From positions 248,001 through 312,000 of the forward strand of contig FUZG01000003.1 of assembly GCA_900168235.1 (NCBI GenBank): DNA of 64,000 nucleotides. Direction: 5' to 3'. The position numbers and the translations under genes were made by a program. Shown piece after piece: positions 5,255 through 55,085 of this stretch; within the stretch, counting starts at the first letter, position 1, and each line of letters starts with the position of its first letter. The DNA is from Lachnospiraceae bacterium (GTDB taxonomy: Bacteria > Bacillota > Clostridia > Lachnospirales > Lachnospiraceae). A model generated the notes under the pieces. It made no database searches. It saw only the letters and a list, made by a program, of their open reading frames with translations, and was not told the origin of the DNA.

Positions 5255-6562
5255 TTATAATCCCTTCAGACGATCCATATAAGAAGTCTGCAGATACTGG
5301 TCATTAAAGTACTCTATATTCTCCTTAATACCCATATCGCGAAGCTGCTGCTCGATTTCACGATAGTAGATATTGCAGATAAAGATACCGGTATTTTCCG
5401 GCAAATTCTTCAACTTCTCCGGTGACTCGATCGTAAGTCCGCAGAAATCCTCACCCCAGCGGGCAGAATTATTATCACAGGTAAAAAGCGGAGGAAATTC
5501 ATCTCCGTAATTCAGCATGTAATTCCTGCACATATTTCCTGCACCAAAAAGTACCACATGATCGTACTTCTTCATGGCGTCCCCCATACCGATCTGCCAA
5601 CGAAGATAATCCGCCACATGATATGTCAGCCGCAAAATGTCAGATGCAAAAGTCAAAGGGAAATTATACGCTGTCGAACCGATATCAAGTATAAGATCAC
5701 CATCAAAGCTGATTGACCGGAGCCCCCTTATCACCTCGAGCCAGTTTGTGGTTGCCATACCGGCTGAAATGCATGAAAAAGGAATACACGCATCTCTGTA
5801 ATTTCCATCATTATCACTGAGCCACACCGCATCAACTCTGCCCTTCAGAGCCATAGCAAATTCATACATATCCTGAGAGCAAAGATTGCAGTTTCCGATA
5901 TTCATGCAGAAACCAAAAGCATTCTCATACTTTGCTTCTCCATTAAGCTTGTCGAGCCATTCATTGATCTCAGCCGGATCAGAAAGAATCCCGCGTACCA
6001 GATGACCCTCGAAGTGCTTGCACTGATTCTCCAGAAGGATCTTCATTGGTGAACGCTTCACTTTATCTTGCTGCTTTTCATGTTCATCTAAGACCACATC
6101 AGCCAGCTTCAGATAAAAATTTCTATTTAATTCAAATGCATCCTTATCTGAATCCAGTAAATCCAAAGGCTGTACTATAATAGATCTGCAGCCGAGTCGA
6201 ACAGCCAATCTTATCTGTTCCTCAACTACAGACATGTATAGATCCATACCCTTTTTATCAACTTCTGACCCCCATCCAAGCTCAGTCGCTCTGGCTGCGG
6301 GAATTCGAAGGTTATTTTTCTGAAATGCATCAAGAATATTCTGAATGGACGCCTGCACCTGATCAGGATGATCCGGCAGGAAAATAAAACCATACTCCGC
6401 AATATTTTTTCGGGCCTTGTCGATCTCCACATATTCACCGCCGCCGCTGCATATATTGAAATTCAAAAGCATTTCTTGGAAACCGGATTCACCGATATAA
6501 CCCACGCCCTGATTCGGACGCATGCGGTCTATATATGATGTTGAATTAAGTAAAATGTTCAT
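5255..6562 (-). CDS. TIM barrel sugar isomerase-like protein with C-terminal Rossmann-like module
   Basis: Residues 1 to about 320 form a second xylose-isomerase-like barrel. It is less canonical than its neighbour: LENQCKHFEGHL, FGFCMNIGNCNL and VWLSDNDG replace the usual motifs, with Asn or Ser where the partner has Asp or His, so metal binding may be weak. Residues about 330-435 are the recurrent module of this locus (VVLFGAGNMCRNYML, then FTCDNNSARWG, GLTIESPEKL). The paralogue at 53766-55085 has the same architecture and the same position upstream of a canonical barrel. Active barrel plus divergent barrel suggests a heteromeric enzyme; that is inference. Confidence 0.75.
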   Translation of the reverse strand: MNILLNSTSYIDRMRPNQGVGYIGESGFQEMLLNFNICSGGGEYVEIDKARKNIAEYGFIFLPDHPDQVQASIQNILDAFQKNNLRIPAARATELGWGSEVDKKGMDLYMSVVEEQIRLAVRLGCRSIIVQPLDLLDSDKDAFELNRNFYLKLADVVLDEHEKQQDKVKRSPMKILLENQCKHFEGHLVRGILSDPAEINEWLDKLNGEAKYENAFGFCMNIGNCNLCSQDMYEFAMALKGRVDAVWLSDNDGNYRDACIPFSCISAGMATTNWLEVIRGLRSISFDGDLILDIGSTAYNFPLTFASDILRLTYHVADYLRWQIGMGDAMKKYDHVVLFGAGNMCRNYMLNYGDEFPPLFTCDNNSARWGEDFCGLTIESPEKLKNLPENTGIFICNIYYREIEQQLRDMGIKENIEYFNDQYLQTSYMDRLKGL

Positions 6563-6593
6563 GTGTAAATTTTATCTTTCTGTTTTTTATGAA

Positions 6594-8152: not shown

Positions 8153-8175
8153 TATCCATTGTTTAGCCATCCCCC

Positions 8176-10059
8176 TCAGATAATATTTTCCATATTAGGC
8201 TTTCCTTTTAAATACACTAAATTCCAATTATAAACACTAACATTTTCGATTCCCATCTCTAAAAGTTGTTTCATAACCGGATGATAATTTGCAATGCAGA
8301 TAATCACTTTTATCTCATCTGATTTATACTGTTTTAATATGTTTGGCGAATATACTGGTATTCCCATAAATCTTGCGCTACTCTCAGCCACTCTATTATC
8401 TAATAATCCTTCTATCTTATTATTAGCACCATAAAGTTTCAGGAAATGTTCTGCATATTTTCCTGCGCCAAATATAAATAGCCTTCTTCCTTCTATATTT
8501 CCAAAAATTTCCATATACACATTGCGATAGCTTAAATTAAGATTATTTAGGCGATCCCGTTTTTCATTGAATTTATGTACCTCCGGTCCGTGTTCACCCC
8601 AAAATTTTTCTCTTTCTTTCCAATAAAGGAGCTTATCCGTAAAAGCAGATTGATACTTTTCCCAACCTTCTAAGCACTCTTGCAATCCATATCTCTGGTA
8701 GAAAAAATCTTTTGGAACAATTTCTTCCATCCATTTTCTATCGGCATAAGCAATATGAATCACCCTCAATATGATAGCCCTCGCCGGATAAATACCTGTA
8801 CAAAACTCTTGATCATAAAAAACATATTCATTATTAATGAAAAACGCATTTAGTGGTACCAAATCTAAATATCCATTAGAAAGCCACACTCCAGACTTAC
8901 CATCAGAATCAATTATTTCCATCACATCTAATTTTTCCGGAATAATTTCTTTTAATCTATGAATATCTGGCATCTCAACATGCTCTGCAGATCTAAGAAC
9001 AATATCCATAAACTTATCCATCGCTTCAATAAAGGATTCTGAATTAATTATTATAAGTCTGGCAAAGTAATTAACGACACTCTCTGCTTCTACATATGGC
9101 ATAGTATAGTTTCCGTTTATATTTATACCATTCAAAACAGAAATTCCTCGAGACTGTAGCTTATCTGCATTATTAATCAATGCTTCTGTCTTCCACCGTC
9201 CCTCTGGAAGTGCCGGCCGTTTTTCGACTGTCTTATTATTTCTAATAATCGTCAATCCCGAATTCACAACTCCACGATTCATTGCCAATGTAACATGCTC
9301 AACATTTAAGAATTTTTCATCCTCTTCGTCGCGCATGCAATCATAAAAATAACCATTAGCTAACTGATGAAACAATCCATTTTTTATCAAATCAGCATAT
9401 AACAGTTGCTCCTCAATAAAAACAGATCGATTACTATGATATACAGGAAAATACCTTATACTGAGCTCTTCTCGCGGCAAATAATCTTCTGCATATACCA
9501 ATTGAGGAAATTGAACCGATGGAATAACAGAAAAGCGTCTCATTTTAAATCCTGAAACTCTTAAAAAATCTTTTACCTCATAATCAGAATAGCATCTTCC
9601 CTTCATCTTAATCGATACTTCTTCCGGTACACTTTGATAATTCTCTATACCATCAAAATTACGATTTGTAAATGGATCTCTATCGCCGCAAAAATATCGA
9701 AGTCCCATACGATTATCTGTTGCTAAAAACAAATGTCCATTATCATTTAGACACCTTTTAACACCAGTAAGTATTTTCACTGGATCACTACATATTTCCA
9801 GTGCACCAATCATTATAACCCTATCATACACATCGACTCTTTCACACAAAAAAGAGTCCTCTCCCAAATCACAAACATCAATCACATCCACTCTATGTAC
9901 ATTTAATTCAAGATATCCTATTAATGCTTGATTCCATTTATCATTACAATTATTAACATACAAAACCGTTTGTGAAGGACTTAAATCTGTCCACGCAATC
10001 ATCCCCGATGATGTAAGTGCTTCTATTGAGTCAGCCGTATCTGTAAATATACTTTTCAC
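8176..10059 (-). CDS. Methyltransferase-like / kinase-like multidomain protein with C-terminal Rossmann-like module
   Basis: A 627-residue protein. Residues about 25-210 resemble a class I SAM-methyltransferase fold (DVIDVCDLGED, YDRVIMIGALE, LNDNGHLFLATDNRMGLRY), but the first glycine-rich loop is not obvious, so methylation is unproven. The middle (about 260-510) resembles a protein-kinase-like fold: VEKRPALPEGR could give the ATP-binding Lys, DLVPLNAFF looks like a catalytic loop with Asp and Asn, and VFYDQEF could be the metal-binding Asp. Residues about 525-627 are the locus module (RLFIFGAGKYAEHF, GLLDNR, GIPVYSPNIL). The gene ends one base from the next upstream gene (10061), which has the same first parts. 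It is related to methyltransferases of Lachnospiraceae surface loci; the function is inferred. Confidence 0.6.
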   Translation of the reverse strand: MKSIFTDTADSIEALTSSGMIAWTDLSPSQTVLYVNNCNDKWNQALIGYLELNVHRVDVIDVCDLGEDSFLCERVDVYDRVIMIGALEICSDPVKILTGVKRCLNDNGHLFLATDNRMGLRYFCGDRDPFTNRNFDGIENYQSVPEEVSIKMKGRCYSDYEVKDFLRVSGFKMRRFSVIPSVQFPQLVYAEDYLPREELSIRYFPVYHSNRSVFIEEQLLYADLIKNGLFHQLANGYFYDCMRDEEDEKFLNVEHVTLAMNRGVVNSGLTIIRNNKTVEKRPALPEGRWKTEALINNADKLQSRGISVLNGININGNYTMPYVEAESVVNYFARLIIINSESFIEAMDKFMDIVLRSAEHVEMPDIHRLKEIIPEKLDVMEIIDSDGKSGVWLSNGYLDLVPLNAFFINNEYVFYDQEFCTGIYPARAIILRVIHIAYADRKWMEEIVPKDFFYQRYGLQECLEGWEKYQSAFTDKLLYWKEREKFWGEHGPEVHKFNEKRDRLNNLNLSYRNVYMEIFGNIEGRRLFIFGAGKYAEHFLKLYGANNKIEGLLDNRVAESSARFMGIPVYSPNILKQYKSDEIKVIICIANYHPVMKQLLEMGIENVSVYNWNLVYLKGKPNMENII

Positions 10060-10060
10060 A

Positions 10061-12352
10061 TCAACTCCTATTTTTCAATCGACTATTTATAAGCTCCTTT
10101 AATTTCGTGGAGCTAGTTGATTGAGTATACGGAAAAAATACAATGTCCGCTCCACGTTCTTCTAAAAACCTTTTATCCGCAATCCATCCTGCGCTATCAT
10201 CATGATCATTACCTGAAAACTGCACATCAAAATGATATAATCTCCATGCTTCTCGAATCCCACTATCGTATAGCGGTATTTCCACGGCACGATCCACATA
10301 TTTGCAAGCCCCAACTATTTCTAATCTCTCCTCAAAAGGAATAAATGTCGAAGTATTCTTATTCTCACTCACCCATTCATCTGTACATACTCCTGCTATC
10401 AAATAGTCACATTGTTCCTTTGCCCTTCTAAGTAAATTTAGATGCCCCTTATGAAACAGATCAAAAACACCTGCAACATATCCAATATGATACTTTTTTT
10501 TCTCTCCATTCACTATACTTCTATCCATTTTCGGTTCTGGTTCAGACTGTAAATCAGACTCTGGGTCAAATACACTATAGTTCACTACCCCCATACTCCT
10601 TATCTGATTTAAAACATTTTCAAATTGCTTAACACAGATGATAATCTTATACTCATCAGGTTTCATTTCTTTTAGAATGTCCGGACTAACTATCATCACA
10701 TTTTCTAACACTTCACCCTGACGTTTCTCATTATTGTCCAAGACTCTATAAACCGGATACCGCTTCCCATATCTTTGCAAAAACTTTGCAGCATATTGCC
10801 CTGACCCAAATATAATTAATTTTCTATTTCCGATATTCTTGAAAAGATCAACAAACACACGTACATATTCTTGAATTGATAATTCCATCTTTTTTCGGTT
10901 TGAATTAACTGCATTTTCAGAAAGCTCATATCTCTCACGCCATAGTTTCACTATATCATCATGTCGATATCTACATACATACATCCAATCTATATCTGAC
11001 CATAGCATTTTTTTCTCCAGCAAACCATAACGATCTAATAATTCATCCCATTCCACGTACTTTGATAAATCCTTAATGTTTGCATATACATCCCGTATCA
11101 TTCCAAAAACGAGCACATTTGCCGGAATATTATCTATCTTATGTTCTTGCTCACTTAACTTAAATACACCTTTCTCATAAACAACTCTTGATACACACAT
11201 ATCTGGAAAGGCATGTGTTAATATTTTTCCTAAATTTTCAATTTTTTCACCATATTTGTCTACTATTTTTGATACATCCGGATTAAGCAAGTTGGATGAT
11301 TCAGATGATTCAAAAATCATAGACTTTAATCTATCTAATTCTTTAAGAAACTTATCCTTATCCAGCCTCACTAGCCTACTAAGATAATTTATACCCATTT
11401 CTGTTCCATTATATTTCATCTCTGTGGCAGATTCTGAATAATATGTTTCTACTACGGGTATATTTCTATTCCTTAATATTAAAGAGTTCTCTTTAATTTT
11501 CCGAATCTTTTTTATTCCATCATTAAAAATTGCAATGGTTTGCATTTTGTCCAAACGATCATTACACCTTTTAACAATTGCATCCTCTCTTAAACCATTT
11601 ATGCAATATTCTGCATATGCAAGCCCTGAAAAATTATCATCAACTGAACATTCTATAACATATGCATTTGCAATAGCATGAAAAACTCCATTTTGAATCA
11701 ACTCATCAAGAAGACTATTTTCATAAAGATAAACCGAATTGCGATTATAATATAAGGGACAATACTGCGCATGAATTTTATCGACAGAAGGAATTATATC
11801 CTCTCTATAAATAAGCTGTGGAAGCTGTAAATTTGGAAAAACGGAATATATACATGTTCTATTAATTCCTGCATCATGTATTACGTTCATCAATTCCCTT
11901 TTTGAAAATGCACGTCCCGATACATATTTCTTATTTTGTTCAGAAATCTTGATGTACCCATCTATTCCATCAAATTGTCTTCCTGTATGATAATCCTTAT
12001 CTCCACAAAAGTATCGTAATCCCAATCGGTTATTTGCCATAATCAGCAATCTACCATTAACGCTCAAATATGATAACGCCGTTTTCACGAATGAAACAGG
12101 ATCATCTACAAATTCAATCGAACAAGGTAAGATGACCACATCAAATTTTTTTTTGCTGTCAAAAGCAGATGCTGTCACGCAAACAGCATCTGCTCCTTGA
12201 TTTCTATAATACTCTTCCAGTTCACTAATCCAATGATTAATGAACTTATCTTCATGTCCTGATTTAAAGAAAAGTATAGTTTTATCCTTACCAATTTCAT
12301 ACCATGTAAAAGAACCTTTTAAAATGTCATTTTCAATTTCCCTCAAGTCCAT
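10061..12352 (-). CDS. Methyltransferase-like protein fused to Rossmann-like module and cytidylyltransferase
   Basis: A 763-residue fusion. The N-terminal half is a paralogue of 8176-10059 (NRLGLRYFCGDKD, FDGIDGY), with a degenerate kinase-like middle. The locus module follows (KLIIFGSGQYAAKFL, VLDNNEKRQG). The last 140 residues are a TagD/GCT-type cytidylyltransferase: GVFDLFHKGHLNLL holds the HxGH nucleotide-binding motif, FSGNDH follows, and STSSTKLK matches the C-terminal nucleotide loop. The last domain would make a CDP-activated polyol or similar from CTP and a phosphate. Two spare paralogues in a row suggest duplication, with the cytidylyltransferase gained by one. Substrate unknown. 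Confidence 0.75.
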   Translation of the reverse strand: MDLREIENDILKGSFTWYEIGKDKTILFFKSGHEDKFINHWISELEEYYRNQGADAVCVTASAFDSKKKFDVVILPCSIEFVDDPVSFVKTALSYLSVNGRLLIMANNRLGLRYFCGDKDYHTGRQFDGIDGYIKISEQNKKYVSGRAFSKRELMNVIHDAGINRTCIYSVFPNLQLPQLIYREDIIPSVDKIHAQYCPLYYNRNSVYLYENSLLDELIQNGVFHAIANAYVIECSVDDNFSGLAYAEYCINGLREDAIVKRCNDRLDKMQTIAIFNDGIKKIRKIKENSLILRNRNIPVVETYYSESATEMKYNGTEMGINYLSRLVRLDKDKFLKELDRLKSMIFESSESSNLLNPDVSKIVDKYGEKIENLGKILTHAFPDMCVSRVVYEKGVFKLSEQEHKIDNIPANVLVFGMIRDVYANIKDLSKYVEWDELLDRYGLLEKKMLWSDIDWMYVCRYRHDDIVKLWRERYELSENAVNSNRKKMELSIQEYVRVFVDLFKNIGNRKLIIFGSGQYAAKFLQRYGKRYPVYRVLDNNEKRQGEVLENVMIVSPDILKEMKPDEYKIIICVKQFENVLNQIRSMGVVNYSVFDPESDLQSEPEPKMDRSIVNGEKKKYHIGYVAGVFDLFHKGHLNLLRRAKEQCDYLIAGVCTDEWVSENKNTSTFIPFEERLEIVGACKYVDRAVEIPLYDSGIREAWRLYHFDVQFSGNDHDDSAGWIADKRFLEERGADIVFFPYTQSTSSTKLKELINSRLKNRS

Positions 12353-12375: not shown

Positions 12376-13656
12376 TTAAATTTCATTCCCTTGAAGTTTT
12401 ACTAATTCTTTTCGAATCTTTTTATCTGCAATTCTAATCTCTGTAAATCCTATTCTTTTAGCCGTTTCTAACAAGGATTTTTGTTCATTTGCAACCGATA
12501 TAATGATCAAGTCTATTTCAGTCGGATCATAATCCCCAATGTATTTAACCATCTTCCCCTCTATCATAGACTCATTTTTTGTCTCAGAGACAGCGAACCC
12601 CGCAATATGATCCTCTAAGCCATTTTCTTTTAAATAGAAAAAAACTCTTCTTCCAACTTTACCAGCACCATATACTAAAATTCTGTTTTTCTTCTCCACA
12701 AGAGAAATTAATCCTCTTAATTCCAAATCTTCATTATACTCATCTAATGGATCAAATGATAAAACATCAAACATCAGGGACTCAACAATATTTAACTCAT
12801 CAAAGCGTTCTTTTTCTTTTATGCTAATTCGCGAATAAATGTCTTTTATATTACCAAGTATCTGTCTTGCATATTTAACAAGCGCTGCTTTCTCTCTATC
12901 ATTCTCTGCTTTAGAAAAAATGTATTTCAAGCAAACGACAAACTGCCATATTCTCCATTTTTCATGATCAAATGTAAGCGTCCTTGTCATAATCGAATTT
13001 CTACGTACCCTATAACGATATATTTTTTCACTGACATGCATCATTTTGTTACTCTTAAAATAACATTCTAACGCAAAGGCAGAATCTTCAAAAAGAGCTC
13101 CCTCCACGAAACGAATACGTTCCTTATTTAACCATGCTTTATTCGCTAGAATCAGCCATGCTGATTCAACAAATTCATTATTCTCTATCAATTCAGTAAA
13201 TAATTCTCTTCCCCTTTGAATTCCAGGATAAGAATTGATTACATCATAATAACTATCTTTTTTGTCAAGATCATTTGATTCATATACCAAATCTCCTGTT
13301 TCATAACCAATTATTTCTATTCCCTTATTCTCTCTTACATATCTCCATAATCTTTCTAATGCATCTTTTTCCAACATATCATCACTATCAACGAAGCAAA
13401 TATACTCTCCCAACGCATTATCAATCCCTGTATTTCTAGCTACACTTAATCCTTGATTTTTCTGATCAACAACCCGAATTCTACTATCCATTGACGCGTA
13501 TTTTTTTAGTATTATATCTGAGCCATCCGTCGATCCATCATTTACACAAACTATTTCAAAATTTTCAAATGATTGACCAATAACACTATCCAAACACTCT
13601 TCCAAATACGTTCTTACATTATAAACAGGAATTATAACCGAAATATCAGGGGTCAT
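12376..13656 (-). CDS. GT2 glycosyltransferase with C-terminal Rossmann-like module
   Basis: Residues 1 to about 230 are a GT-A family 2 transferase: ISVIIPVYNV at 5-14, VNDGSTDGS at 38-46, and FVDSDDM around 88-94 as the metal-binding DXD. Residues 326-420 are the locus module (RILVYGAGKVGRR) with a variant second half (AVSETKNESMI) shared with the GT2 genes at 26337 and 43525. The start overlaps the stop of the upstream GT2 by four bases, which gives translational coupling. It would add one sugar to the growing repeat unit on the cytoplasmic face; the donor is unknown. Confidence 0.88.
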   Translation of the reverse strand: MTPDISVIIPVYNVRTYLEECLDSVIGQSFENFEIVCVNDGSTDGSDIILKKYASMDSRIRVVDQKNQGLSVARNTGIDNALGEYICFVDSDDMLEKDALERLWRYVRENKGIEIIGYETGDLVYESNDLDKKDSYYDVINSYPGIQRGRELFTELIENNEFVESAWLILANKAWLNKERIRFVEGALFEDSAFALECYFKSNKMMHVSEKIYRYRVRRNSIMTRTLTFDHEKWRIWQFVVCLKYIFSKAENDREKAALVKYARQILGNIKDIYSRISIKEKERFDELNIVESLMFDVLSFDPLDEYNEDLELRGLISLVEKKNRILVYGAGKVGRRVFFYLKENGLEDHIAGFAVSETKNESMIEGKMVKYIGDYDPTEIDLIIISVANEQKSLLETAKRIGFTEIRIADKKIRKELVKLQGNEI

Positions 13657-14954
13657 TTATACATATCCTCCCAAACAACAAAATTCTCTATACCATATCT
13701 GTTCAAATTACCAATAACATCTGCCTGATATTTTTTTGATACAGCTATAATGAATATACTATCTATCGTTTTTCCAGTTTTAACTACTTCCTCTAGTTCA
13801 ACAACTGGTTTATTATGAAATTTTCTCCCAGCATCAAGATTACTGACAACAAATGCATCTATCTTTTCGCGATCTTCCTGATTAAATTTCCAATAAACCT
13901 TATCTGCATAAACACCAGCTCCATAAAGATATACGAAATTATAGTCCTTAATTTCCATATGTAACATATCTGAACATTTTTTTTGTTCTTTATAAAATAA
14001 ATCTGACGAGTCCATTATCTTAAATAATGTTTCACGATCCTTAATTCCCAAAATTGATATATCTAACAATCCTCTTTCTTCCAACTTGTTAAAATCAACC
14101 TGAACTCGATGTAAAAATTCCAACTTAAACTCATCAGCAATACGACGATATGTATCTCTAGATGCCGCATAACGACACATTGTGTAATATGGCAAAATCC
14201 ATTCTTTTATTTTTTCATCTTTTATAAATTTATTTTGTACGAAATCATATTCATCATATACACAAAAAAGTTTCTCCTTATTGCTCATTGAAGAATTAGG
14301 ATTATCAATACGATAATGATAAAAATATTTATCCATGATATATGCTTTTTTAGCATACATCAATGTCTGAAACCAAAATCCCGTATCCTGGTAAGAAGCC
14401 CCTGGTGTTTCATTGAACCGAATCGAATATTTATTTAAAAATGCTTTATTATAAATTGCTGTCCAATGCGCTATATATCCTCCAAACAGCGTATGAATAT
14501 CGTCACTCTCTATTATTCGATCATATATACCTGGTACATTAATAATTTTAGTCGGTTTTATTTCATAACTTCCCTCCTCTCCAGTTATATATGCAAAATT
14601 AGACTTAACAAAATCAACACATTTATTTTTTTGAAATACAGACATGATAGAACTGAACATGTTACTACTAATGTAATCATCAGGTTCTAAAATCGCAATA
14701 AATTCTCCAGATGAATACTCTATTCCAACATTCATCGAATTGCCATATCCTGTATTTTTCTTATGAATAACCTTAACATTTGAATACTTTTCCGCATACT
14801 CGTCTAGTATTTCTGATGAACGATCTGTAGATCCATCATCAACACATATCAATTCATAGTCAGGGTAATCCTGATTAATCGCACTCTCCAAACATTCCGT
14901 AAGATATTTTTCAACATTATACACAGGTATAATAACAGAAATCTTATTTGTCAT
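13653..14954 (-). CDS. GT2 glycosyltransferase with C-terminal Rossmann-like module
   Basis: A family 2 transferase of 433 residues using the internal ATG (AAGGAG lies ten bases upstream; the outer ATG is too close to that site). ISVIIPVYN, VDDGSTDRS and ILEPDDY are the conserved strands; Glu-Pro-Asp-Asp stands where DXD is usual. From about residue 340 the locus module appears as FVYLYGAGVYADKV with FVVSNLDAG. It is one of three tandem GT2 genes (12376-16300), all with the module and each with little spacing. The closest relative by eye is the next gene, 14972-16300, since both have a GASYQD(I/T)GF(S/W) region (about residue 200) seen in these longer GT2s. Confidence 0.88.
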   Translation of the reverse strand: MTNKISVIIPVYNVEKYLTECLESAINQDYPDYELICVDDGSTDRSSEILDEYAEKYSNVKVIHKKNTGYGNSMNVGIEYSSGEFIAILEPDDYISSNMFSSIMSVFQKNKCVDFVKSNFAYITGEEGSYEIKPTKIINVPGIYDRIIESDDIHTLFGGYIAHWTAIYNKAFLNKYSIRFNETPGASYQDTGFWFQTLMYAKKAYIMDKYFYHYRIDNPNSSMSNKEKLFCVYDEYDFVQNKFIKDEKIKEWILPYYTMCRYAASRDTYRRIADEFKLEFLHRVQVDFNKLEERGLLDISILGIKDRETLFKIMDSSDLFYKEQKKCSDMLHMEIKDYNFVYLYGAGVYADKVYWKFNQEDREKIDAFVVSNLDAGRKFHNKPVVELEEVVKTGKTIDSIFIIAVSKKYQADVIGNLNRYGIENFVVWEDMYK

Positions 14955-14971
14955 TCTTTCCATTCTCCTTC

Positions 14972-16300
14972 TTAATTTACAAGCATCTGTAACGAAAATG
15001 ATTCATTCAATATATAAATTTTATTTTCATTTATTCCACAACTTATCAATTGCGTCTTAATATCATTAGAATTTTTTTTATTTGCAACTAAAAAGTCTGC
15101 ATTCGGAAAAAGGCTTATTAGATCATCTATACTTTCAATTGTATACCCCTCTATAACTTTTCCCCTTAATTCTTTTGAATTATCGCCTAGACCTATTACA
15201 AATTTCTGTCCCGTAATTCTTTCGTATTTTAATATACTTTTTCCTCTAACTCCTGCTCCACAAATAACAAATTTTCTTTTTTGACTTACCATCTCGATAA
15301 AATCCGAAAATGATAGCTCATCTTTCTTAAATTCTTTTTCTTTGTAGTTTATGAAACAATTCAACTCATTTAGCCTATTTAGTGCATCATCTGAAATGTA
15401 AGTAGGCTTTATTTGAATCTTTTTTTCTATTTTTTTTATTTCACTACCAACAACACTTAAAAACGAAATCCTTCCCTCATTACTAAGTCGTTTACAATTC
15501 CATAAATAAGACCCTACTTTTGCAGAATCAATAATTGATTCAACCGTATCACTTAGTAAATTTCTTTTCTTAAACCAATCTATTAAAAAATCAAACTCAT
15601 ATTTTACGCAGAAAATCTTATTGTCGTCCTTCACTGATGAATTTGGGTTATCCAGCCTATAATAATAATCACACTCACTTAAATACATGCATTTTTTGGC
15701 ATTAATCCCAGTCAGTAAAGAAAAACCAATATCCTGATATGATGCACCTTGACTTTCATTAAAAAAAATGTCATTATCAATCAAAAATTTCCTAGAATAA
15801 ATTCCACTCCAAATACTAACAAATATTAGATTTCCCAAACTCAGATCTGAACATACATCCAGAACCTTTCCGGATATTGATTTAATTCTCTCTGAAATAT
15901 TTTTCTGAACTAATTCCGTCCCATTGTAATCAATGAATGACGTATACCCCTCTTTTAAAAAATCAACACCATTTCCACTAGCTATTAAATACATTTTTTC
16001 ATACATATCTAGGGCAATATAATCATCCGTTTCAACAATTCCAATATACTCTCCCTCCGCTGCCTTTATCCCTAAATTCATCTGATATCCGTAACTCTTC
16101 TTTTCAGAATGAATCAACATAACCCGTGAATCATTTCGCACATACTGCTCAGCGATTTGCAGTGTTCCATCCGTTGAACCTGCATCTATAATAATAACTT
16201 GAATGTCCCTCAACGTTTGATTCAAAACACTCTCTATACATTTTTTAAAGTATTTCACCACATTTAGTGTTGGCATTAAAACAGAAACCTTAACACTCAT
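14972..16300 (-). CDS. GT2 glycosyltransferase with C-terminal Rossmann-like module
   Basis: A 442-residue family 2 transferase. VSVLMPTLNV at 5-14, IIDAGSTDGT at 37-46 and IVETDDY around 88-94 mark the GT-A core; the DXD is Glu-Thr-Asp-Asp. The C-terminal module begins near residue 350 (KFVICGAGVRGKSI) and has GLGDNSKELRGKVI. It is the first gene of the three-GT2 run. The stretch upstream (16301-16622) has a possible weak hairpin, so this run could start its own transcript. Sugar specificity is unknown. Confidence 0.88.
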   Translation of the reverse strand: MSVKVSVLMPTLNVVKYFKKCIESVLNQTLRDIQVIIIDAGSTDGTLQIAEQYVRNDSRVMLIHSEKKSYGYQMNLGIKAAEGEYIGIVETDDYIALDMYEKMYLIASGNGVDFLKEGYTSFIDYNGTELVQKNISERIKSISGKVLDVCSDLSLGNLIFVSIWSGIYSRKFLIDNDIFFNESQGASYQDIGFSLLTGINAKKCMYLSECDYYYRLDNPNSSVKDDNKIFCVKYEFDFLIDWFKKRNLLSDTVESIIDSAKVGSYLWNCKRLSNEGRISFLSVVGSEIKKIEKKIQIKPTYISDDALNRLNELNCFINYKEKEFKKDELSFSDFIEMVSQKRKFVICGAGVRGKSILKYERITGQKFVIGLGDNSKELRGKVIEGYTIESIDDLISLFPNADFLVANKKNSNDIKTQLISCGINENKIYILNESFSLQMLVN

Positions 16301-19606: not shown

Positions 19607-21004
19607 TCATCTGAACTTTAAAATTTCTATCGGAAGCACGTGCCTTTCAGCAACTCCACATTCATTAATAAGTTGCTCTTTTATTTCTTCATAGAACACA
19701 TTGCTTCCGATAAGAATATGATCAAATTCTTCACTTGTAATCTCACTAGGATCAATCACACGCTTTCCTTCAAATTCTTCATTATCTACACATCCATTTC
19801 TGGAATATGCTACAACTTCAATTTCTTTAGCTAGCAAAGAAGAATACCTTTTAACAACCATCCCTGTACCAAAAACAATCACCCTATTAATTTCATTTGC
19901 CTTTGCTTTCAAAGAATTAATATTTTCGAGAATATGATTTCTAAGTTCTGCTTCACTAACTCCAATCTTTTCAGAAACAGCACCTATAAAAGAATCTTTT
20001 TTACAAGTATCCTTTTCAAGAGAAATATCGAGATTTGCTTGAGAATCTATATCTTCTATTCCATTTAAAATATAGAACTTTTTGATGAACATATTCCATC
20101 TATTGATCATAACCTCACTGAGTGCTTTGGGTTCATAAATTTTCTTCTCTTCATTTTCCTTTTCAATTCGATCCATCAAGTCCAACGCTCTAATAATCAA
20201 ATCCGCACTATTTTCAGAAAACGAATCAACCTGAACAGGCATTAAAATTTTTTCTGTTTCGTAATCAATGTCAATTCCAAGACTATCCTTCAACTGATTC
20301 TTTTTTACTCTCGTAACATCTTGAAAAAATGGGATATTACCGGAACTTGTGACATTACTTACACCTTCATTATGATAATCCAACAATGCCTTATCTAGAT
20401 TACCTATCCTGCCTCCACATTTTAATACCCTAATCCACAGATCATAATCCTCCGCTAAACATTCCTCATCATATCTCAATTCATTATCGATTAAAAACTG
20501 TCTTCTGATAAAAACTGTAGGATGGGAGACTGGTGAATCAAAAAGCGCAAATGCCTTATTTTTTTCAGGATTGCTATAATATTCAGAATAATGAAACTTA
20601 GAACTATTATAGACTTTCATCTGAGTTCCGCATATTGCTACATCAGGATTACTTTCCATATACTCAAGTTGCTTCTGAAAACGCTCCGGGTATGAATAAT
20701 CATCTGCATCCATTCGTGCTATATACTTCCCTGTAGCCACATCTAATCCAAGATTAAGAGATACTGCTACACCTTTTTTTTGATTAGTCTTCTGGATTAA
20801 TCGAATTCGACTATCTGTTTCAGCATATTGCTCTAATATTTCAGTTGTACCGTCATTTGTCAACGCCTCATTAATTATAATAAACTCAAAATCCGAATAT
20901 GTTTGATTCAAAATACTATTAACTGATCTCTTAATTGTTTTCACCGCATTATACACTGGCATTATAACCGAAATCATACAGTCACTTTTTTCCTTAAATA
21001 TCAT
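19607..21004 (-). CDS. GT2 glycosyltransferase with C-terminal Rossmann-like module
   Basis: Family 2 transferase: MISVIMPVYNAVKTI begins the fold, with INEALTNDGT and ARMDADDYSYPERF (DXD, and the Pro-Glu-Arg-Phe that follows it in many capsule GT2s). An internal ATG ten codons in, directly at the fold start, is an alternative start. The module begins about residue 372 (RVIVFGTGMVVKRY) and includes GKRVIDPSEI. It stands alone, with 285 bases downstream and 180 bases upstream that hold no gene. Donor unknown. Confidence 0.85.
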   Translation of the reverse strand: MIFKEKSDCMISVIMPVYNAVKTIKRSVNSILNQTYSDFEFIIINEALTNDGTTEILEQYAETDSRIRLIQKTNQKKGVAVSLNLGLDVATGKYIARMDADDYSYPERFQKQLEYMESNPDVAICGTQMKVYNSSKFHYSEYYSNPEKNKAFALFDSPVSHPTVFIRRQFLIDNELRYDEECLAEDYDLWIRVLKCGGRIGNLDKALLDYHNEGVSNVTSSGNIPFFQDVTRVKKNQLKDSLGIDIDYETEKILMPVQVDSFSENSADLIIRALDLMDRIEKENEEKKIYEPKALSEVMINRWNMFIKKFYILNGIEDIDSQANLDISLEKDTCKKDSFIGAVSEKIGVSEAELRNHILENINSLKAKANEINRVIVFGTGMVVKRYSSLLAKEIEVVAYSRNGCVDNEEFEGKRVIDPSEITSEEFDHILIGSNVFYEEIKEQLINECGVAERHVLPIEILKFR

Positions 21005-22578: not shown

Positions 22579-22666
22579 AACACCCCACAACTTTCTATCT
22601 ATTTGTGTATGACCTAAATTAAGCGCTTATCCTTACCTATCTACAACAACTATATTCTTACATTTA

Positions 22667-23721
22667 TCAAAAACGCCCACTTTTGATTAATGTCTCAAGT
22701 CTCGTAACACTCCCTTTTTCCTCATCATTCTTCCATGTTCCAGACTCAAAATGAACTGAAACAGTCCTATCCGAATAAAAATCCGGCATTCCTTCAATCG
22801 TCTTTGGTGACATTACTTCTGCCGGATATAACACAATATCATTCACTTTTTGGTATTGATTAATAATCTTAAAACCATACTTCTTTATTGCAGGATGAAG
22901 AAATGTATGTCCCTGCTTTTTTCCCGGCTTCCCGTTCGGCAACAAGAAATGCTTTCCATTGTATTCATCTATCAAATCCTTCAAAATGTCGCAGCCGGCA
23001 GCCGCACCAAATCCACATCCATTATTAACTCTGTCTGCGCATCCCATGTTAAAAAAAGCCCGATCATTAAGAAGACAATCAAAAGATTTTATAGCTTTTA
23101 CATCTGTATCAAGATAAATACCACCCTCGTTATATATAATATCCAATCGTGCATAGTTAGAAGCAAACCCATATGAGCGAGCCTCTATCGCCTCTCTTGC
23201 ATATTCATTCTTCCAAAAATCATAATTATCTTCATTCCATTCAATTACTTCATAATCAGGATTATATTTTTTCCAAGTATCTATATTTTCTTTGAACTCA
23301 CGTGGTAACTCTTTTCCACCTAACCAAATATAATGTATCTTCTTCGGTATTCTCTGTTCTCCCACAGTAAATTCAAAGTCCGGCACTACTTCCTTAGTAT
23401 TACGTATTACTACCTGCAAAAAGCATTCTATTCCATCTATTTCATTAATCTGATCTAGCTGTTCACTATATCCGCAGCATAAAAAAGAGATGAAACAAAA
23501 ATCAGATAGTCATGAATATTTTCCAATTTTTTTAGTGCATCAACACTTACTATAGGAACCTTCTTTTCACAATGTTCAATAGTACTGCCCCATTTATCGG
23601 AACTGTTATCTACAACATACTCCAATTCCTTATTCTCAAAATAAATATCCAGGGCACTATCCAAGGCTTTTCCGGCTCCGAACACAATAACCTTCTTATT
23701 TTTTATGTAGTGTCTGCTCAA
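22667..23721 (-). pseudogene. Frameshifted GT32-like transferase with N-terminal Rossmann-like module
   Basis: Two open pieces belong to one gene. 23455-23721 encodes the module (KVIVFGAGKALDSAL, YVVDNSSDKWG) and stops after ADIVNS; 22667-23419 encodes the DXD sugar-transferase domain (IPKKIHYIWLGG, GGIYLDTDVKA, HFLLPNGKPGKKQGH). The intact paralogue at 44720-45811 reads ADIVEQLDG across the same point. Restoring one base after GTG at about 23460 recovers EQLDQINEIDGIECFLQVV, so a single-base loss explains the break. The first ten codons differ from the paralogue, where the transposon remnant abuts. It is inactive unless the shift is a sequencing error or is corrected. Confidence 0.8.
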
Positions 23722-36618: not shown

Positions 36619-36641
36619 CTTTTTTCTCCCTTTCTCGCCTT

Positions 36642-43355: not shown

Positions 43356-43420
43356 GCAATTCTCCCTCTTGACTCTTAACAATTGAACACAGACAGCAAA
43401 TTTCACAAGCTACTGTATTT

Positions 43421-43524: not shown

Positions 43525-44727
43525 TCACATACACCAGACATTCTCAAAACCATGTTCCCTAAGATTACTTTTTATTCTATTCTTTTCATCAGACATGATA
43601 GCTATTATCACTAGCGAGTTCTTTCTATAGCTCATATAATCATCAATGCTCTTTACAGGAAGATTTTCCACTTCTTTTTTATTTCCTCTTGTTTCAGAAA
43701 CCGCAAAACCATCTACTCGTAATCCTTTGAGATCTCTGAGCACTCGCTTTCCGAGCCTGCCTGCTCCGTATATTATGATGTGCTCATATTTTTTGAACGA
43801 TTCTATCTCTTCACCAGAAAATAATCCCTGACTCTGCCTAAAGAGATGATAAATATGCTGATAATATGGATTATCAAATTTCAAATCACCAAACGAATTT
43901 ATATCAGGAAAATCAGATAAAACTGTATTGAACTTCCTGTCAAGAATGTGTGACAGTACGGGTGATATTTCCTGGTCATCGTAATATTTACTTGTTAATA
44001 ACCTCAACATATCTGCATACGCAGCAATGCTTCCCTTTAGCCTTTTCTCCTGATTAGCCAAAGTTGTTATTGAACTTTCCCTCCTAAGATATATATAAAG
44101 CTCATCATCTATTACTTTCGCACGCTTCGCGGATAACATTATCTTAAGAGAATATGCATTATCTTCATGCACAAATCCCTCTGTAAAACGTATGTTACTC
44201 TCTCTGATCATATTAAGTGAAAGCAATTTTGCCGTGCAGATCATATCAATCCATCCATTTGTATCGATCAACATCTGCTTCCCACTTTTTATCGGTCCGA
44301 CTAAATACTTCGACCTTTTTGAATATGCTTCATAAAATTTCTCAAGTTCCTGATCTTCATATAATAATCTCATCTGGAAAATCACCATGTCTAAGCTATT
44401 CCTTAACGCACAGTCATATGTGATTTTCAATGTATCTTTTTCAAGCCAGTCATCCGAATCAAGGAAAAGAATATACTCACTGTCAGCTTGCTCAACTGCT
44501 CGATTACGGCAAAATGCCACACCATTATTACATGTATTCCTTATAACTCTTACGTTACTATATTGATCCTCATATTCAGCTAAAATAGCCGGTGAATCAT
44601 CTGTTGAGCAATCGTCTACGCATATTATGTCAAAATCCTCAAAGTCCTGTCCCACAGCGCTATCAAGGCACTTCTTCAGATATTTTCCTGCATTATACAC
44701 AGGGATTATAATTGAAACCTTACTCAT
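43525..44727 (-). CDS. GT2 glycosyltransferase with C-terminal Rossmann-like module
   Basis: A 400-residue family 2 transferase. The ATG at 44727 follows AAGGA and overlaps the preceding stop by eight bases. KVSIIIPVYNAGKYL, VDDCSTDDS and LFLDSDDWLEK are the core. The module starts near residue 300 (HIIIYGAGRLGKRV, AVSETRGNKK). This is the last gene of the TagF-like operon (47914 to 43525), with no close neighbour downstream before the DUF1703 promoter. Confidence 0.87.
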   Translation of the reverse strand: MSKVSIIIPVYNAGKYLKKCLDSAVGQDFEDFDIICVDDCSTDDSPAILAEYEDQYSNVRVIRNTCNNGVAFCRNRAVEQADSEYILFLDSDDWLEKDTLKITYDCALRNSLDMVIFQMRLLYEDQELEKFYEAYSKRSKYLVGPIKSGKQMLIDTNGWIDMICTAKLLSLNMIRESNIRFTEGFVHEDNAYSLKIMLSAKRAKVIDDELYIYLRRESSITTLANQEKRLKGSIAAYADMLRLLTSKYYDDQEISPVLSHILDRKFNTVLSDFPDINSFGDLKFDNPYYQHIYHLFRQSQGLFSGEEIESFKKYEHIIIYGAGRLGKRVLRDLKGLRVDGFAVSETRGNKKEVENLPVKSIDDYMSYRKNSLVIIAIMSDEKNRIKSNLREHGFENVWCM

Positions 44728-45811
44728 CAATCCTTCCACTCTTCAACAGTCCCAGCAGTTTTTCCATTCCTGCCTGTTCTTTTTCATTTCTCCATGATCC
44801 AGATTCCAGATGCACCGAAACCGTTTTATCAGAGAACATATCTTCCATTCCCTCTAATGTCTTAGGTGACATCACTTCTGATGGATACAAGACTACATCA
44901 TCAATCTTTTGATACTGGTTTTTTATCTCAAACCCGTGTTTTTTCAGTACCGGATGCAGGAATGTATGTCCCTGCTTTTTCCCGGGCTTTCCGTTTGGCA
45001 GCAGGAAATGTTTACCGTTATACACATCAAGTAATTCCTTTACTATACTGCTTCCCTTTTCTGCGCCAAAGCCGCAGCCGTTATTTACTCTGTCTGCAGA
45101 ACCCATATTAAAGAATGCTCTGTCGTGTAATAGGCAGTCAAAATTTTTCAAAGCCTTTACATCCGTATCGAGGTATATACCGCCTTCATTGTATATGATA
45201 TCGAGTCTGGCATAGTTTGAAGCAAAGCCATATGCGTGTGCTTCCAGCGCTTCTTTAGCATATACGCACTTTCCGAAATCATAATTATCCTCATTCCATT
45301 CTACTATCTCGTAGTCAGGGTTATGCATTTTCCATGATTTTATATTTTCCCGAAATTCTCGGGGTATTTCTTTATTTCCGAGCCATATATAGTGTATCTT
45401 TTTAGGAATACGTTCTTCGCCTTCCGAAAAGCTATAATCGTTTATCTTTTCTTTAGCATAACGGATGAGCACCTGCAGGAAACACTCCATCCCATCTATT
45501 TCACAAATACCATCCAACTGCTCCACAATATCTGCTGCATAAAATGGTGATGATATAAATATCAGATAGTTCTGTTTATCTGTTATATTTCGTAGTGCCT
45601 CAATACCGACTATCGGAATCTTTTGACCAAGATGTTCTATATAAGTTCCCCATTTATCCGGACTATTATCTATTATCATCTCCGGTTTCTTCTCAGCGAA
45701 ATATATATCAAGTGAGCTTTCCGTCGCCCTTCCGGCACCAAAAATGATCACTTTCTTATCAACTATATATTTTCTAAATTCCTCCGGTCCCCTATTGATT
45801 ATTCTAACCAT
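44720..45811 (-). CDS. GT32-like DXD sugar transferase with N-terminal Rossmann-like module
   Basis: A 363-residue protein, intact paralogue of the pseudogene at 22667. Residues about 14-110 are the module (KVIIFGAGRATESSL, IIDNSPDKWG). Residues about 130-360 match the Gly_transf_sug/GT32 family: IPKKIHYIWLG, ASNYARLDIIYNEGG, IYLDTDVKAL (DXD) and HTFLHPVLKKHG. It adds a hexose on the cytoplasmic side; donor unknown. The paralogue shows that the N-terminal module and GT32-like domain are an established pair. Confidence 0.85.
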   Translation of the reverse strand: MVRIINRGPEEFRKYIVDKKVIIFGAGRATESSLDIYFAEKKPEMIIDNSPDKWGTYIEHLGQKIPIVGIEALRNITDKQNYLIFISSPFYAADIVEQLDGICEIDGMECFLQVLIRYAKEKINDYSFSEGEERIPKKIHYIWLGNKEIPREFRENIKSWKMHNPDYEIVEWNEDNYDFGKCVYAKEALEAHAYGFASNYARLDIIYNEGGIYLDTDVKALKNFDCLLHDRAFFNMGSADRVNNGCGFGAEKGSSIVKELLDVYNGKHFLLPNGKPGKKQGHTFLHPVLKKHGFEIKNQYQKIDDVVLYPSEVMSPKTLEGMEDMFSDKTVSVHLESGSWRNEKEQAGMEKLLGLLKSGRIDE

Positions 45812-45816: not shown

Positions 45817-46635
45817 TTACCTGTACTGCTCATCGATTCGTCTGTTTGTTTCTTCCAAAATGCGGATCGTGTCTTCATCAAGCCCCATCTCCAACGCACG
45901 GTCTTTCGAGAATGAAGCATCCCCATGAACTTCCTCTATGGTTTTACTCGACGGATATACATCGCACACTATATAGTCCATTTTTTTGATCATAGCGATT
46001 GCGATCCTGTGCGTTCCATCTATCGGGTACTTGTCTTCCATAAGGGATACAGTCCGGCTTTCATCATATCCGTTCTCATCCCAGCTCTTCAACAGTTCTA
46101 TGTATTTTTCCAGTCTCTTTTTAGATGTTTCTTCGCTGTTAAAGATCGACAGACCGCGTATATAGATTTCATATCCGTCATCTCTTAACCCATAATACTG
46201 CTCCGCCGCCAGATATCTGAATGCTGCGGAATATGTATTCCGTGCTGCCCTCCATATATCACGAAGCGGTATATGTACATTTTTCTGTATAGGTTCTCCC
46301 AATATTAAACCATACAAAAAGGGATACACCCATACATATTCCGTGAATCCCCTTGCCTGAAGTAATCCGATGATCTCATCTCTTATCGATTCATGTACCG
46401 CAATACAAATCATAGTTCTCGGATCATTCTTTATACGATCTACAGGAACTATTTCAAGACCATCAATTTCCTTTTCTTCACTTTCCTTAGATGTGATATA
46501 GCATAACACATTTTTCTTTAAGCCATGCTCACATACAGCTTTATAAACGCGTCTCGCCGTATAACCAGCCCCGTAGATCATGACTTTATTACGGGACATT
46601 TCAGTCAATAGTTCTGATACAGTTTTTATGTTCAT
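45817..46635 (-). CDS. ParB/Srx-like domain protein with N-terminal Rossmann-like module
   Basis: A 272-residue protein with the locus module at residues about 15-110 (KVMIYGAGYTARRVY, ITSKESEEKEIDG). The C-terminal half includes YPIDGTHRIAIAMIKK and YIVCDVYP: the Gly-x-His-Arg motif resembles the ParB/sulfiredoxin nucleotide-binding fold. Related domains include free serine kinase SerK/SbnI, so this might be an ATP- or ADP-dependent kinase, but that is inference. It lies between a TagF-like gene and the GT32-like gene in one operon. Confidence 0.65.
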   Translation of the reverse strand: MNIKTVSELLTEMSRNKVMIYGAGYTARRVYKAVCEHGLKKNVLCYITSKESEEKEIDGLEIVPVDRIKNDPRTMICIAVHESIRDEIIGLLQARGFTEYVWVYPFLYGLILGEPIQKNVHIPLRDIWRAARNTYSAAFRYLAAEQYYGLRDDGYEIYIRGLSIFNSEETSKKRLEKYIELLKSWDENGYDESRTVSLMEDKYPIDGTHRIAIAMIKKMDYIVCDVYPSSKTIEEVHGDASFSKDRALEMGLDEDTIRILEETNRRIDEQYR

Positions 46636-52715: not shown

Positions 52716-52727
52716 ATGTTTCTTCTC

Positions 52728-53015: not shown

Positions 53016-53017
53016 AT

Positions 53018-53956
53018 TTATATGCATATCTCATTTCTAAGATACTCGCCTATCTCCGCGATGGTCCTGAGCGCCTGATCCTTCACGAGCTCAGGGAAGC
53101 TGTTCATGCACGGAAATGTTTCAAAGCTCAGCGTTCCGTCGAACTTTATGTCTCTTAAGCCCCTGATAAAGCCTTCCCAATCTACGCCGATATCCGCAAC
53201 ACCCTCTGAACGAAATGTAAACGGCATCTGGTGGAGATCACCTATGCCGTCATTATCATGGATATGCAGGATCTTTAGCCTGTTTCCAAGAGTCGTGACC
53301 ATCTCATACGCATCTCTGCCTACGAGATTCATATGGCCTGTATCCAGACAGAAGCCAAATCTCTCCTCTCCTGCCTCTTCATTCAGCCTGTCTATCAGCG
53401 CTGAGGCTTCATGAGGGTCTGCACATACACCTTCTACTATACGCCCTGCCTGACCTTCATAGAGATTTTCCAGACAAATTACCACATTGTTTTCCCTCGC
53501 CATGGAGATAAGTGACCTGAAGTATTCAAAATTTTTCTGTATCTCAACTTCTTTTCCCAGATGATACTGGAGTTTCCATGGGTGTATCACCATATACGGG
53601 ATTTCCATGAATCCTGCGAAATAAAAGCTCTTCGGGATGACATTTTCCATCGTATAGGCGTTCTGACGCTCCCTGTCAGGCCCCGGAACGAATACAGGAT
53701 AGGGAGCATGCATCTGAGATATCTTTATACCGGCTTTTTTCAGTGCCTCTTTATAGGGCAGAAACTTATCCCTTATCTCGTCTAACGATGCGTCGAAGAA
53801 GGGATTTAACTTTCCTCCATATATTTCTGAGTTCATGATAAAGACGTCTAAGTTGAAATCTACGCAGTCGAAGCCTGCCCTCTTTATCATATCTATACCA
53901 TTTGTTGAGAGTTCCCTCTCCAGTATCCCCTTTGTCTGGACACCAAGTTTCAGCAT
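53018..53956 (-). CDS. Sugar phosphate isomerase/epimerase-like TIM barrel protein (paralogue of 4310-5245)
   Basis: A 312-residue TIM barrel. The ATG at 53956 has GGAGG eleven bases upstream and gives MLKLGVQTKG, matching the length and start of its paralogue at 4310-5245. HAPYPVFVPG, MVIHPWK, VICLENLYEG, FGFCLDTGHMNLVG and LHIHDNDG are the active-site strands; His, Glu and Asp metal ligands are conserved. The start lies inside the tail of the upstream gene (overlap 191 bases), which is unusual and discussed there. Confidence 0.8.
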   Translation of the reverse strand: MLKLGVQTKGILERELSTNGIDMIKRAGFDCVDFNLDVFIMNSEIYGGKLNPFFDASLDEIRDKFLPYKEALKKAGIKISQMHAPYPVFVPGPDRERQNAYTMENVIPKSFYFAGFMEIPYMVIHPWKLQYHLGKEVEIQKNFEYFRSLISMARENNVVICLENLYEGQAGRIVEGVCADPHEASALIDRLNEEAGEERFGFCLDTGHMNLVGRDAYEMVTTLGNRLKILHIHDNDGIGDLHQMPFTFRSEGVADIGVDWEGFIRGLRDIKFDGTLSFETFPCMNSFPELVKDQALRTIAEIGEYLRNEICI

Positions 53957-55085
53957 ATTTTTTGTCATCCTCCATAAACCATCCTGCATCAAACACATCT
54001 ACGTCTGCTATTCCAAGCTCATGGAATTGCCTCACGTAATCGCGATATGCAGCGAGACACACCAGCGCATAGACCTCATCCCCAGGTATCTTACGCACTT
54101 CCTCAGGGTTCTTTATCTCAGCACCGCCGATCTTTTCTCCCCAGCGCTTTTCATCATTATCAATGATAAAGTACGGGGTATGTCTCTCACCATATAATTC
54201 CATAAATTTGTACATGAATGGTCCGGCACCGAAGGTTATGAGCTTCTTATCTCCAATGGCATCAAGTATCTGATCCCAGTGAAATGACTTATCCCATTCA
54301 TCTGCGATACGATATACCATACGGAGCATAGTGCCTGCGAGCGGTGAAGGCACACTGCCCGTAAGTCCATCAATATCAAGGAAAAGTCCTCCGTCAAATC
54401 CGACCTTATGAAGCTCTCTTATAACGAGCCTCCAGTCCGTAAGGAGTATGCCTCGTCCAACCGTAAAGGTATAGGGCATCTGATGCATATCGTGGATACC
54501 GTCGTTGTCATTTGCATGGAGGAATTTTAGTTCAGAACCCAGTCCTGTAATGAGTTCCACTACATTTGCAGAGAAAAGCATTGCATGACCTATATTAAGT
54601 CCAGCCCAAAATCGAGAATTATTACTATTTTTAATATTCTCAGCTTTACGGAGTTCTGCTAAAACCTTTCTAAAATCCTCTGCATCACAAAGACCGTTAC
54701 GTCGTACCCTGACGTCTCCCTGCTCCACATAGTAGCCGTTTTCCAGCACTATACGACAATCAGACCTTTTTATACGGTCCATAATGCCTATAAGTGTTTC
54801 AATAATGTCCTTCACATCCTTAATGCCTTCTGTTTCTATAAGGATATAGGGCACTTTCAGCCTGTCCGCATTATCAAGTGCATCAGAGATCACGTCTCTG
54901 AAACTGTCTGTTTTTCCCGCAGACACTGTTATGCAGCCGATGCTCAGATCATCACAGTGAGCCACACTCTGTATCTGAGCCTCTGCTTCTTTTAAGTTTT
55001 CATACGGGATCTCAAGATGCCGAAATCCCGCTTCTTTTACCGCAGCTATCAGATTACTCTTTGTTTTAATTCCGGTAATCATCAC
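53766..55085 (-). CDS. TIM barrel protein with C-terminal Rossmann-like module; overlong C-terminus
   Basis: A 439-residue frame, paralogue of 5255-6562. The barrel (1 to about 280) has IVLENGYYVEQG, AGLNIGHAML and LHANDNDG; the metal His is replaced, as in the left paralogue. The module is at about 290-380 (KLITFGAGPFMYKF, FIIDNDEKRWG, GAEIKNPEEV). After DVFDAGWFMEDDK the frame runs 60 codons into the next gene in another frame, giving a basic tail (RLRLRRFQLRRLYH) not seen in the paralogue. A lost stop or a nearby frame shift is likely. It starts four bases before the end of the Gfo/Idh fusion gene. Confidence 0.75.
   Translation of the reverse strand: MMITGIKTKSNLIAAVKEAGFRHLEIPYENLKEAEAQIQSVAHCDDLSIGCITVSAGKTDSFRDVISDALDNADRLKVPYILIETEGIKDVKDIIETLIGIMDRIKRSDCRIVLENGYYVEQGDVRVRRNGLCDAEDFRKVLAELRKAENIKNSNNSRFWAGLNIGHAMLFSANVVELITGLGSELKFLHANDNDGIHDMHQMPYTFTVGRGILLTDWRLVIRELHKVGFDGGLFLDIDGLTGSVPSPLAGTMLRMVYRIADEWDKSFHWDQILDAIGDKKLITFGAGPFMYKFMELYGERHTPYFIIDNDEKRWGEKIGGAEIKNPEEVRKIPGDEVYALVCLAAYRDYVRQFHELGIADVDVFDAGWFMEDDKKYAETWCPDKGDTGEGTLNKWYRYDKEGRLRLRRFQLRRLYHELRNIWRKVKSLLRRIVRRDKG

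Follow-up and report, generated by a model that had tools for sequence, protein, structure and literature searches.

Why should one small domain recur on 17 otherwise unrelated proteins encoded in a single stretch of bacterial DNA? The question is raised by a 64,000-nucleotide segment of the 3.79 Mb genome of a Lachnospiraceae bacterium (contig 11, positions 248001-312000; hereafter the window), which is a long surface-glycan locus lying mostly on the minus strand. A preliminary description of the window had pointed to a Rossmann-like module of 90-100 residues on 17 of its genes. Our analysis suggests that this module is a common component, for docking or sensing, of the machinery that assembles one surface polymer, in this bacterium and in many of its relatives.

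With respect to whether the 17 segments truly form one family, as had been proposed, all 17 were recovered (E 2e-33 to 1e-9) by a window-free profile, built without window sequences from 505 modules of named loci, and no other window open reading frame (ORF) matched it at E ≤ 1. The 505 modules had been gathered with profiles descended from the window modules, and are independent of the window in sequence, not in collection. When the segments were compared among themselves with leave-one-out profiles, 16 of the 17 reached E 1.4e-6 or better. Only the segment of gene 26337 (genes are named by their first window coordinate) fell short, at E 0.011 in this test and 1.1e-9 with the window-free profile; the epimerase at 18383 (Pfam Epimerase) scored ahead of it in the former, at E 0.0029. 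Across all leave-one-out tests, the best E value among 5,300 shuffled ORFs was 0.1. By the window-free test the list of 17 is complete and contains no false members. Median pairwise identity among the 17 is only 20%, and the sole invariant residues are the two glycines of a GxG motif.

Placement of the module on its carriers (tagged genes) is also as first described: the module is C-terminal on six GT2 genes and on 5255 and 8176, lies toward the C-terminal side of 53766 and inside 10061, and is N-terminal on GT4, GT32 (two), GT-B-like, HAD, TylF and ParB-like genes. The labels HAD and ParB-like come from reading the sequences, Pfam giving no significant match for either. The modules, each recovered by the window-free profile, and the two untagged TIM barrels beside them are as follows, with further evidence in brackets.

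4310..5251, minus strand: intact TIM barrel without a tag, immediately downstream of its tagged counterpart (related by phmmer to 3wqo and IolI 1i60; eight conserved positions all kept).
5261..5575, minus strand: C-terminal module of the degraded TIM barrel encoded by 5255-6562 (E 2.4e-33; metal-site loss).
8191..8499, minus strand: module at the C-terminus of a methyltransferase-like plus kinase-like protein, 8176-10059 (kinase residues K, D, N, D kept).
10529..10837, minus strand: internal module, flanked by a degraded methyltransferase/kinase part and by a glycerol-3-phosphate-type cytidylyltransferase, gene 10061-12352 (structure model; TagD-type relatives).
12400..12699, minus strand: module at the C-terminus of a GT2, 12376-13656 (Pfam).
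13656..13955, minus strand: module at the C-terminus of a GT2, 13653-14963 (Pfam).
14978..15292, minus strand: module at the C-terminus of a GT2, 14972-16300 (Pfam).
19610..19897, minus strand: module at the C-terminus of a GT2, 19607-21004 (the sole one above the PF22674 cut-off in hmmscan).
22303..22578, minus strand: module at the N-terminus of a GT4, 21184-22590 (Pfam).
23458..23706, minus strand: module of the broken gene 22667, in a different frame from the GT32 ORF 22667-23419.
26346..26654, minus strand: module at the C-terminus of a GT2, 26337-27632, the most divergent.
30473..30760, minus strand: module at the N-terminus of a capsule-synthesis/GT-B-like protein, 29117-30772 (Pfam).
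35229..35528, minus strand: intact module of 34721/34878, N-terminal in a HAD-like protein that is cut short, ORF 34878-35585 (the HAD label comes from reading the sequence).
36334..36627, minus strand: module at the N-terminus of a TylF-type methyltransferase, 35620-36657 (Pfam).
43528..43800, minus strand: module at the C-terminus of a GT2, 43525-44739 (Pfam).
45461..45769, minus strand: module at the N-terminus of an intact GT32, 44720-45811 (Pfam).
46303..46602, minus strand: module at the N-terminus of a 'ParB-like' protein, 45817-46635.
53018..53998, minus strand: second intact untagged TIM barrel, whose ORF as called overlaps the tagged gene (conserved metal-site positions).
53952..54260, minus strand: module lying toward the C-terminal side of the other tagged TIM barrel, 53766-55085, which is partly degraded (metal-site residues).

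In terms of fold, the predicted structure is a single Rossmann domain (predicted local distance difference test score 91.8, rounded to 92, for the 10061 module), the beta-alpha-beta arrangement, the GxGxxG-like loop and an acidic residue closing strand 2, all features of that fold, being evident from the model and from residue counts; 8 of the 66 modules picked were omitted from the structure alignment. Across modules, the loop residues are Gly in 95%, Gly in 84% and Gly or Ala in 79%, and an Asp follows strand 2 in 77%. Because these glycines and this Asp are retained while identity has fallen to 20%, we argue that a ligand site has probably been kept. Among the matches listed, the nearest folds are the CAC2185 N-domain (2g6t), the accessory domain of WbaP and 3nkl (the latter presumably WbpM-type), Rex and PglD-like N-domains, and many fold relatives, judged by structure titles, were solved with nucleotides, coenzyme A or nucleotide-sugars.

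The fold family is already known, and it is the setting of the module that differs. The PglD-like kinship noticed at the outset is borne out by weak, sub-cut-off PglD_N and TIGR03570 matches and by fold matches to PglB, PerB and VioB (4m99, 4ea7, 7txp). Unlike in PglD_N/NeuD proteins, hexapeptide acyltransferase partners are rare (2 of 20 cluster representatives), and a Pfam scan gave no hexapeptide match in the window's tagged proteins. PF22674 (C2185-like_N) shares the fold through 2g6t of C. acetobutylicum, but its model reaches only 11 of 200 family genomes, with one or two matches each. Against its 27-bit gathering cut-off, 19607 scores 30.1, whereas 21184 (22.6, or 27.5 in a genome search), 35620 (21.4) and 29117 (16.1) fall below, and neither the remaining window proteins nor the 22667 module had a listed match. 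To our knowledge PF22674 has no known function, and a literature search without most subscription journals found no paper on it. The WbaP accessory domain (PF13727) sits on membrane phosphoglycosyl transferases and PglF-like dehydratases, whereas the module is found here on many soluble enzymes; hmmscan, whose filters drop weak matches, gave no PF13727 match at E ≤ 1 in 16 tagged window proteins and none at 0.01 in the 22667 module. Rex pairs its C-terminal domain, which senses reduced nicotinamide adenine dinucleotide (NADH), with a DNA-binding domain, whereas the window partners are enzymes, and the Pfam scan of the tagged proteins gave no winged-helix DNA-binding match.

Many tagged loci occur in Lachnospiraceae and beyond. 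At least five matches were found in 48 of 299 sampled family genomes (a hand count that includes the window's own genome, with at most 17 candidates scored per genome), and a survey of 398 phylum genomes yielded eleven outside the family with five to twelve. Any match at all is present in 221/299 family and 126/398 phylum genomes, tallies that overstate tagging because single matches in ORFs of about 220 residues resemble Rex. The window's genome itself contains a second module cluster on contig 27 (about 39-66 kb), plus one match near 88 kb. The window and 60 loci of 40 genomes supplied 373 module ORFs (173 N-terminal, 148 C-terminal, 19 internal, 33 short), whose partners form 81 BLAST clusters, 38 of them single-protein; one enzyme family may span several clusters. 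Segments with fewer than 70 aligned columns were left out before counting, as was an L082 segment that looks like a GT2 fragment and was removed by the Rex size rule; a few of the 373 are by reading Rex or dehydratase-type proteins (L065, L066), the Rex-like L066 protein having been kept, also in the residue and identity statistics.

The density of tagging is best seen in loci located through the core protein, represented in the window by 8176 and 10061. A scan with the 10061-like core returned 236 relatives, and the analysis went on with the best 80 loci among them; their titles are mostly Lachnospiraceae or Selenomonadaceae, and carriers include Acetatifactor muris, Dorea sp. 5-2, Selenomonas ruminantium and Anaerovibrio lipolyticus. 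In the 73 core loci with at least three module ORFs, 351 of the 465 ORFs of at least 200 residues between the outermost tagged genes carry the module (284/397 without core and barrel genes; 491/605 if the outermost genes, tagged by definition, are counted). The corresponding control, 20 other 20-kb regions of five tagged genomes, gave 0 of 247.

The partner enzymes indicate what the tag marks. Pfam partners comprise GT2, GT4, GT8, GT32, WbsX, RgpF, DUF4422, CDP-glycerol transferase, LicD, FkbM, TylF, radical SAM, TupA ATP-grasp, MptE-like, polysaccharide deacetylase, FrhB and hexapeptide proteins. Among 98 tagged proteins (drawn from 334 with core and barrels excluded, one near-duplicate of 99 having been removed), there were 40 GT2, 13 GT1/4, 11 FkbM and 7 CDP-glycerol transferase matches; epimerase and nucleotidyltransferase families are absent from the 25 commonest of this set, and the remaining families have at most one member each. 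The 107 untagged ORFs of 200-700 residues inside the spans include 13 Epimerase, 12 NTP_transf_3, 10 GT2, 8 IspD and 5 GT1. From these family counts, the tag marks glycan-acting enzymes, mainly transferases, more than makers of activated sugars. A shared nucleotide-sugar store, one of two roles offered in the preliminary description, is disfavored because the sugar-nucleotide makers inside tagged spans mostly lack the tag; the data support one family on unrelated enzymes, PglD-like kinship and many loci, and leave a docking or sensing role plausible.

The possibility that each module is simply a normal part of its own enzyme family elsewhere is partly realized. In 158 of 257 cases the nearest module from another genome is attached to a member of the same partner cluster, against a mean of 33 and a maximum of 51 after shuffling, and solved proteins of other bacteria, 2g6t and probably the FkbM protein 2py6, carry such a domain. 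Many fusions are therefore old and have traveled with their enzymes; recent shuffling of one tag is not favored, as modules follow their partners.

An unexpected arrangement concerns the TIM barrels, which form two pairs in the window (4310/5255 and 53018/53766), the second of each being tagged. Across the named loci and the window, 55 of 55 untagged barrels keep H126, E165, D207, H210, H233, H235, H244 and E281 (4310 numbering), positions that we take to be an IolI-type metal site; IolI 1i60 is a sequence relative of the 4310 barrel by phmmer. By this test of the metal site conserved in IolI/xylose-isomerase-like barrels, the tagged copies mostly fail: among 59, H126 is kept in 2, E165 in 43, D207 in 47, H210 in 2, H233 in 2, H235 in 1, H244 in 2 and E281 in 3. 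In all 51 loci with both kinds, both genes are on one strand and the tagged barrel is the upstream member, the distance being at most 50 nucleotides in 32 and at most 200 in 45. It is a fair inference that the tagged, degraded barrel may serve as an adaptor of its intact neighbor.

The core protein combines, in the structure model, a methyltransferase fold followed by an aminoglycoside-phosphotransferase-type fold. Both assignments rest on the model because phmmer of 8176 against the PDB gave no match, and 4fev and its kin match in fold at 5-7% identity. We presume a likeness to WbdD-type methyltransferase-kinases, which have the same two folds in this order. The core differs from WbdD in that the GxG of the S-adenosylmethionine loop is absent from 60 of 62 core-type sequences (present in 2/62) and in the addition of the module and a cytidylyltransferase; 17 of 77 relatives were omitted from the core alignment. 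In the window (8176-12352), the kinase-type and cytidylyltransferase parts, which form one protein elsewhere, seem to be split between 8176 and 10061.

Modules also occur with little else attached. The fetched loci contain 34 module ORFs shorter than 200 residues, some broken or cut at contig ends, and 16 of these (157-171 residues) were picked because of their N-terminal segment, which is hydrophobic or Gly/Ala-rich and is followed by a helical-looking linker and the module. Judged from sequence, the 16 probably carry a membrane anchor, which is likely overall and uncertain for some, hydropathy exceeding 1.6 in 11 of them. Their best Pfam match is 2-Hacid_dh_C in 11/16, below cut-off (best 24.4 versus 25.1); some lack the second glycine, and their profile has no match in the PDB. 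With that profile, 41 of 299 genomes gave a match, some of the matches lying in longer ORFs (WbsX tags, for instance), and ORFs of at most 185 residues match it in 27 genomes (a hand count; three partial or interrupted). At least five modules are present in 30/41 genomes with a stand-alone match versus 18/258 without (Fisher p 7e-20), a test that is partly circular because the profiles overlap. Tandem N-terminal double modules occur at L180:15462-17210, L187:15459-17210, L199:2658-4391, L127:2403-4118 and L110:1981-3663, the last with a sub-cut-off Radical_SAM match. Two very large ORFs of more than 1300 residues (L184:4721-8716 and L190:4317-8537) have one module near each end.

Building from these observations, we tentatively favor, at just short of an even chance, the reading that the module is a nucleotide-responsive adaptor by which the enzymes of glycan assembly are gathered or gated. 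The module would be a single-domain Rossmann adaptor, fused mainly to enzymes acting on the growing surface glycan and making them answer to one shared cue. It would most likely bind a nucleotide or nucleotide-sugar by-product and, depending on this binding, associate with other modules, so that the enzymes would be gathered and gated together at the membrane, with a degraded barrel acting as adaptor of the intact one. Support from sequence and fold comprises the common descent of the 17 modules, the kept phosphate-loop glycines, the usually acidic residue after strand 2, the concentration on glycan transferases and rarity on sugar-nucleotide makers, the degraded barrel beside its intact paralogue, and the stand-alone modules, many with a hydrophobic N-terminus. 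More elaborate, and possible at a lower level of confidence, is a ligand-gated assembly line, in which the common tag would recruit most glycan-acting enzymes of a locus to one another and, in some species, to small membrane-anchored modules, while degraded tagged copies would bring in untagged active partners. In WbaP, a related domain both holds the dimer and answers to uridine nucleotides (PMC10942596). Weighing loop retention, the near absence of a locus code described below, the old fusions and this precedent together, we favor a nucleotide-responsive adaptor with docking.

Several observations weigh against this interpretation. About 23% of modules lack the Asp, V standing in its place in 15%, and the loss is commoner on C-terminal modules (Asp in 64%). 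No conserved interaction surface was seen in residue conservation of the module. Modules of the same locus with different partners share 20.2% identity versus 19.6% between genomes, and there is therefore no strong locus-specific code; the mean same-locus score is 0.601 versus 0.561 when permuted (standard deviation 0.010, a difference of about 4 standard deviations), an excess that partly reflects recent duplicates. A locus-specific docking code was accordingly rejected, the effect being tiny. At E ≤ 1e-8 the anchored stand-alone family finds no match in the window's genome, and anchors are therefore not needed everywhere. The spans also include the untagged GT2 and GT1/4 enzymes counted above (10 and 5 of 107). 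As for the barrels, 53766 and L168 (2 of the 59 tagged) keep at least three of the six most diagnostic residues and L228 of G170 keeps HIHDND and DVGH, so that metal-site loss is usual, not universal; these barrels may represent earlier stages of loss. In six of the 51 pairs the two genes are separated by 1.4-7 kb, no barrel pair is present in the fetched sequence of 22 of 65 loci longer than 20 kb, and untagged barrels without a tagged partner occur in more distant loci (G156, G152, G114, G161) and on the window genome's own contig 15. G057 was dropped as such a case, its contig ending just upstream of the barrel.

The main rival is pure ligand sensing, in which each module would regulate only its own enzyme through feedback by uridine monophosphate, cytidine diphosphate, NADH or a nucleotide-sugar, with no docking. 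The ligands found in solved fold relatives and the WbaP precedent speak for it, as do a conserved loop with surfaces free to vary and the absence of a clear locus code, but tags on degraded barrels, anchored stand-alone modules and tandem modules are not readily explained, and we regard it as somewhat unlikely. The converse, a domain that serves structural interaction and retains the fold but not ligand binding, would accommodate the degraded barrels, the stand-alone and tandem modules, the missing second glycine in some stand-alone copies and the concentration on glycan-acting enzymes; retention of GxG in 95 and 84% despite drift to 20% identity, with neither a conserved surface patch nor clear locus-specific similarity, makes this improbable. 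Least probable of all is that each family acquired a Rossmann domain to serve a need of its own, such as stability or the binding of a donor or acceptor, and that such old fusions piled up in large loci without a shared role, since the fidelity of modules to partner clusters and the solved examples from other bacteria are set against more than 20 Pfam partner families, tagging of three of four ORFs inside spans, the degraded barrels and the stand-alone copies.

With respect to significance, the usual practice for large surface-glycan loci in Clostridia and Negativicutes of the gut and rumen is to interpret them one enzyme at a time. A module on about three-quarters of span genes, mostly under the cut-offs of the family libraries used here, offers a handle on pathway organization: it predicts which enzymes belong to one polymer, and it opens to direct experiment whether soluble glycan enzymes assemble into complexes. 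The nucleotide-responsive adaptor favored here could also extend the nucleotide sensing of WbaP from the first pathway enzyme to most of a pathway. A literature search without most subscription journals found no description of a tag used across a whole pathway, with degraded enzymes among its partners and with stand-alone copies that are anchored.

The window also holds genes of other kinds. Frames resembling transposase remnants (by reading) lie at 23750-24600, upstream of the broken GT32 gene, and are adjoined by an HNH-type ORF with a weak PtuB match (24617-25297). Inside the glycan locus, an AbiLi/AbiLii-like pair at 48274-50179 (PADLOC 1.3e-52 and 7.1e-12) is a candidate anti-phage system, and an AAA ATPase resembling HEC-02A / PD-T4-4_A (36775-38569, with a small neighbor; PADLOC 5.6e-23) is a candidate defense gene. 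Finally, a protein with AAA-ATPase_like and PDDEXK_9 matches is encoded at 41673-43406, and both families recur among the untagged ORFs of other tagged spans (6/107 each).

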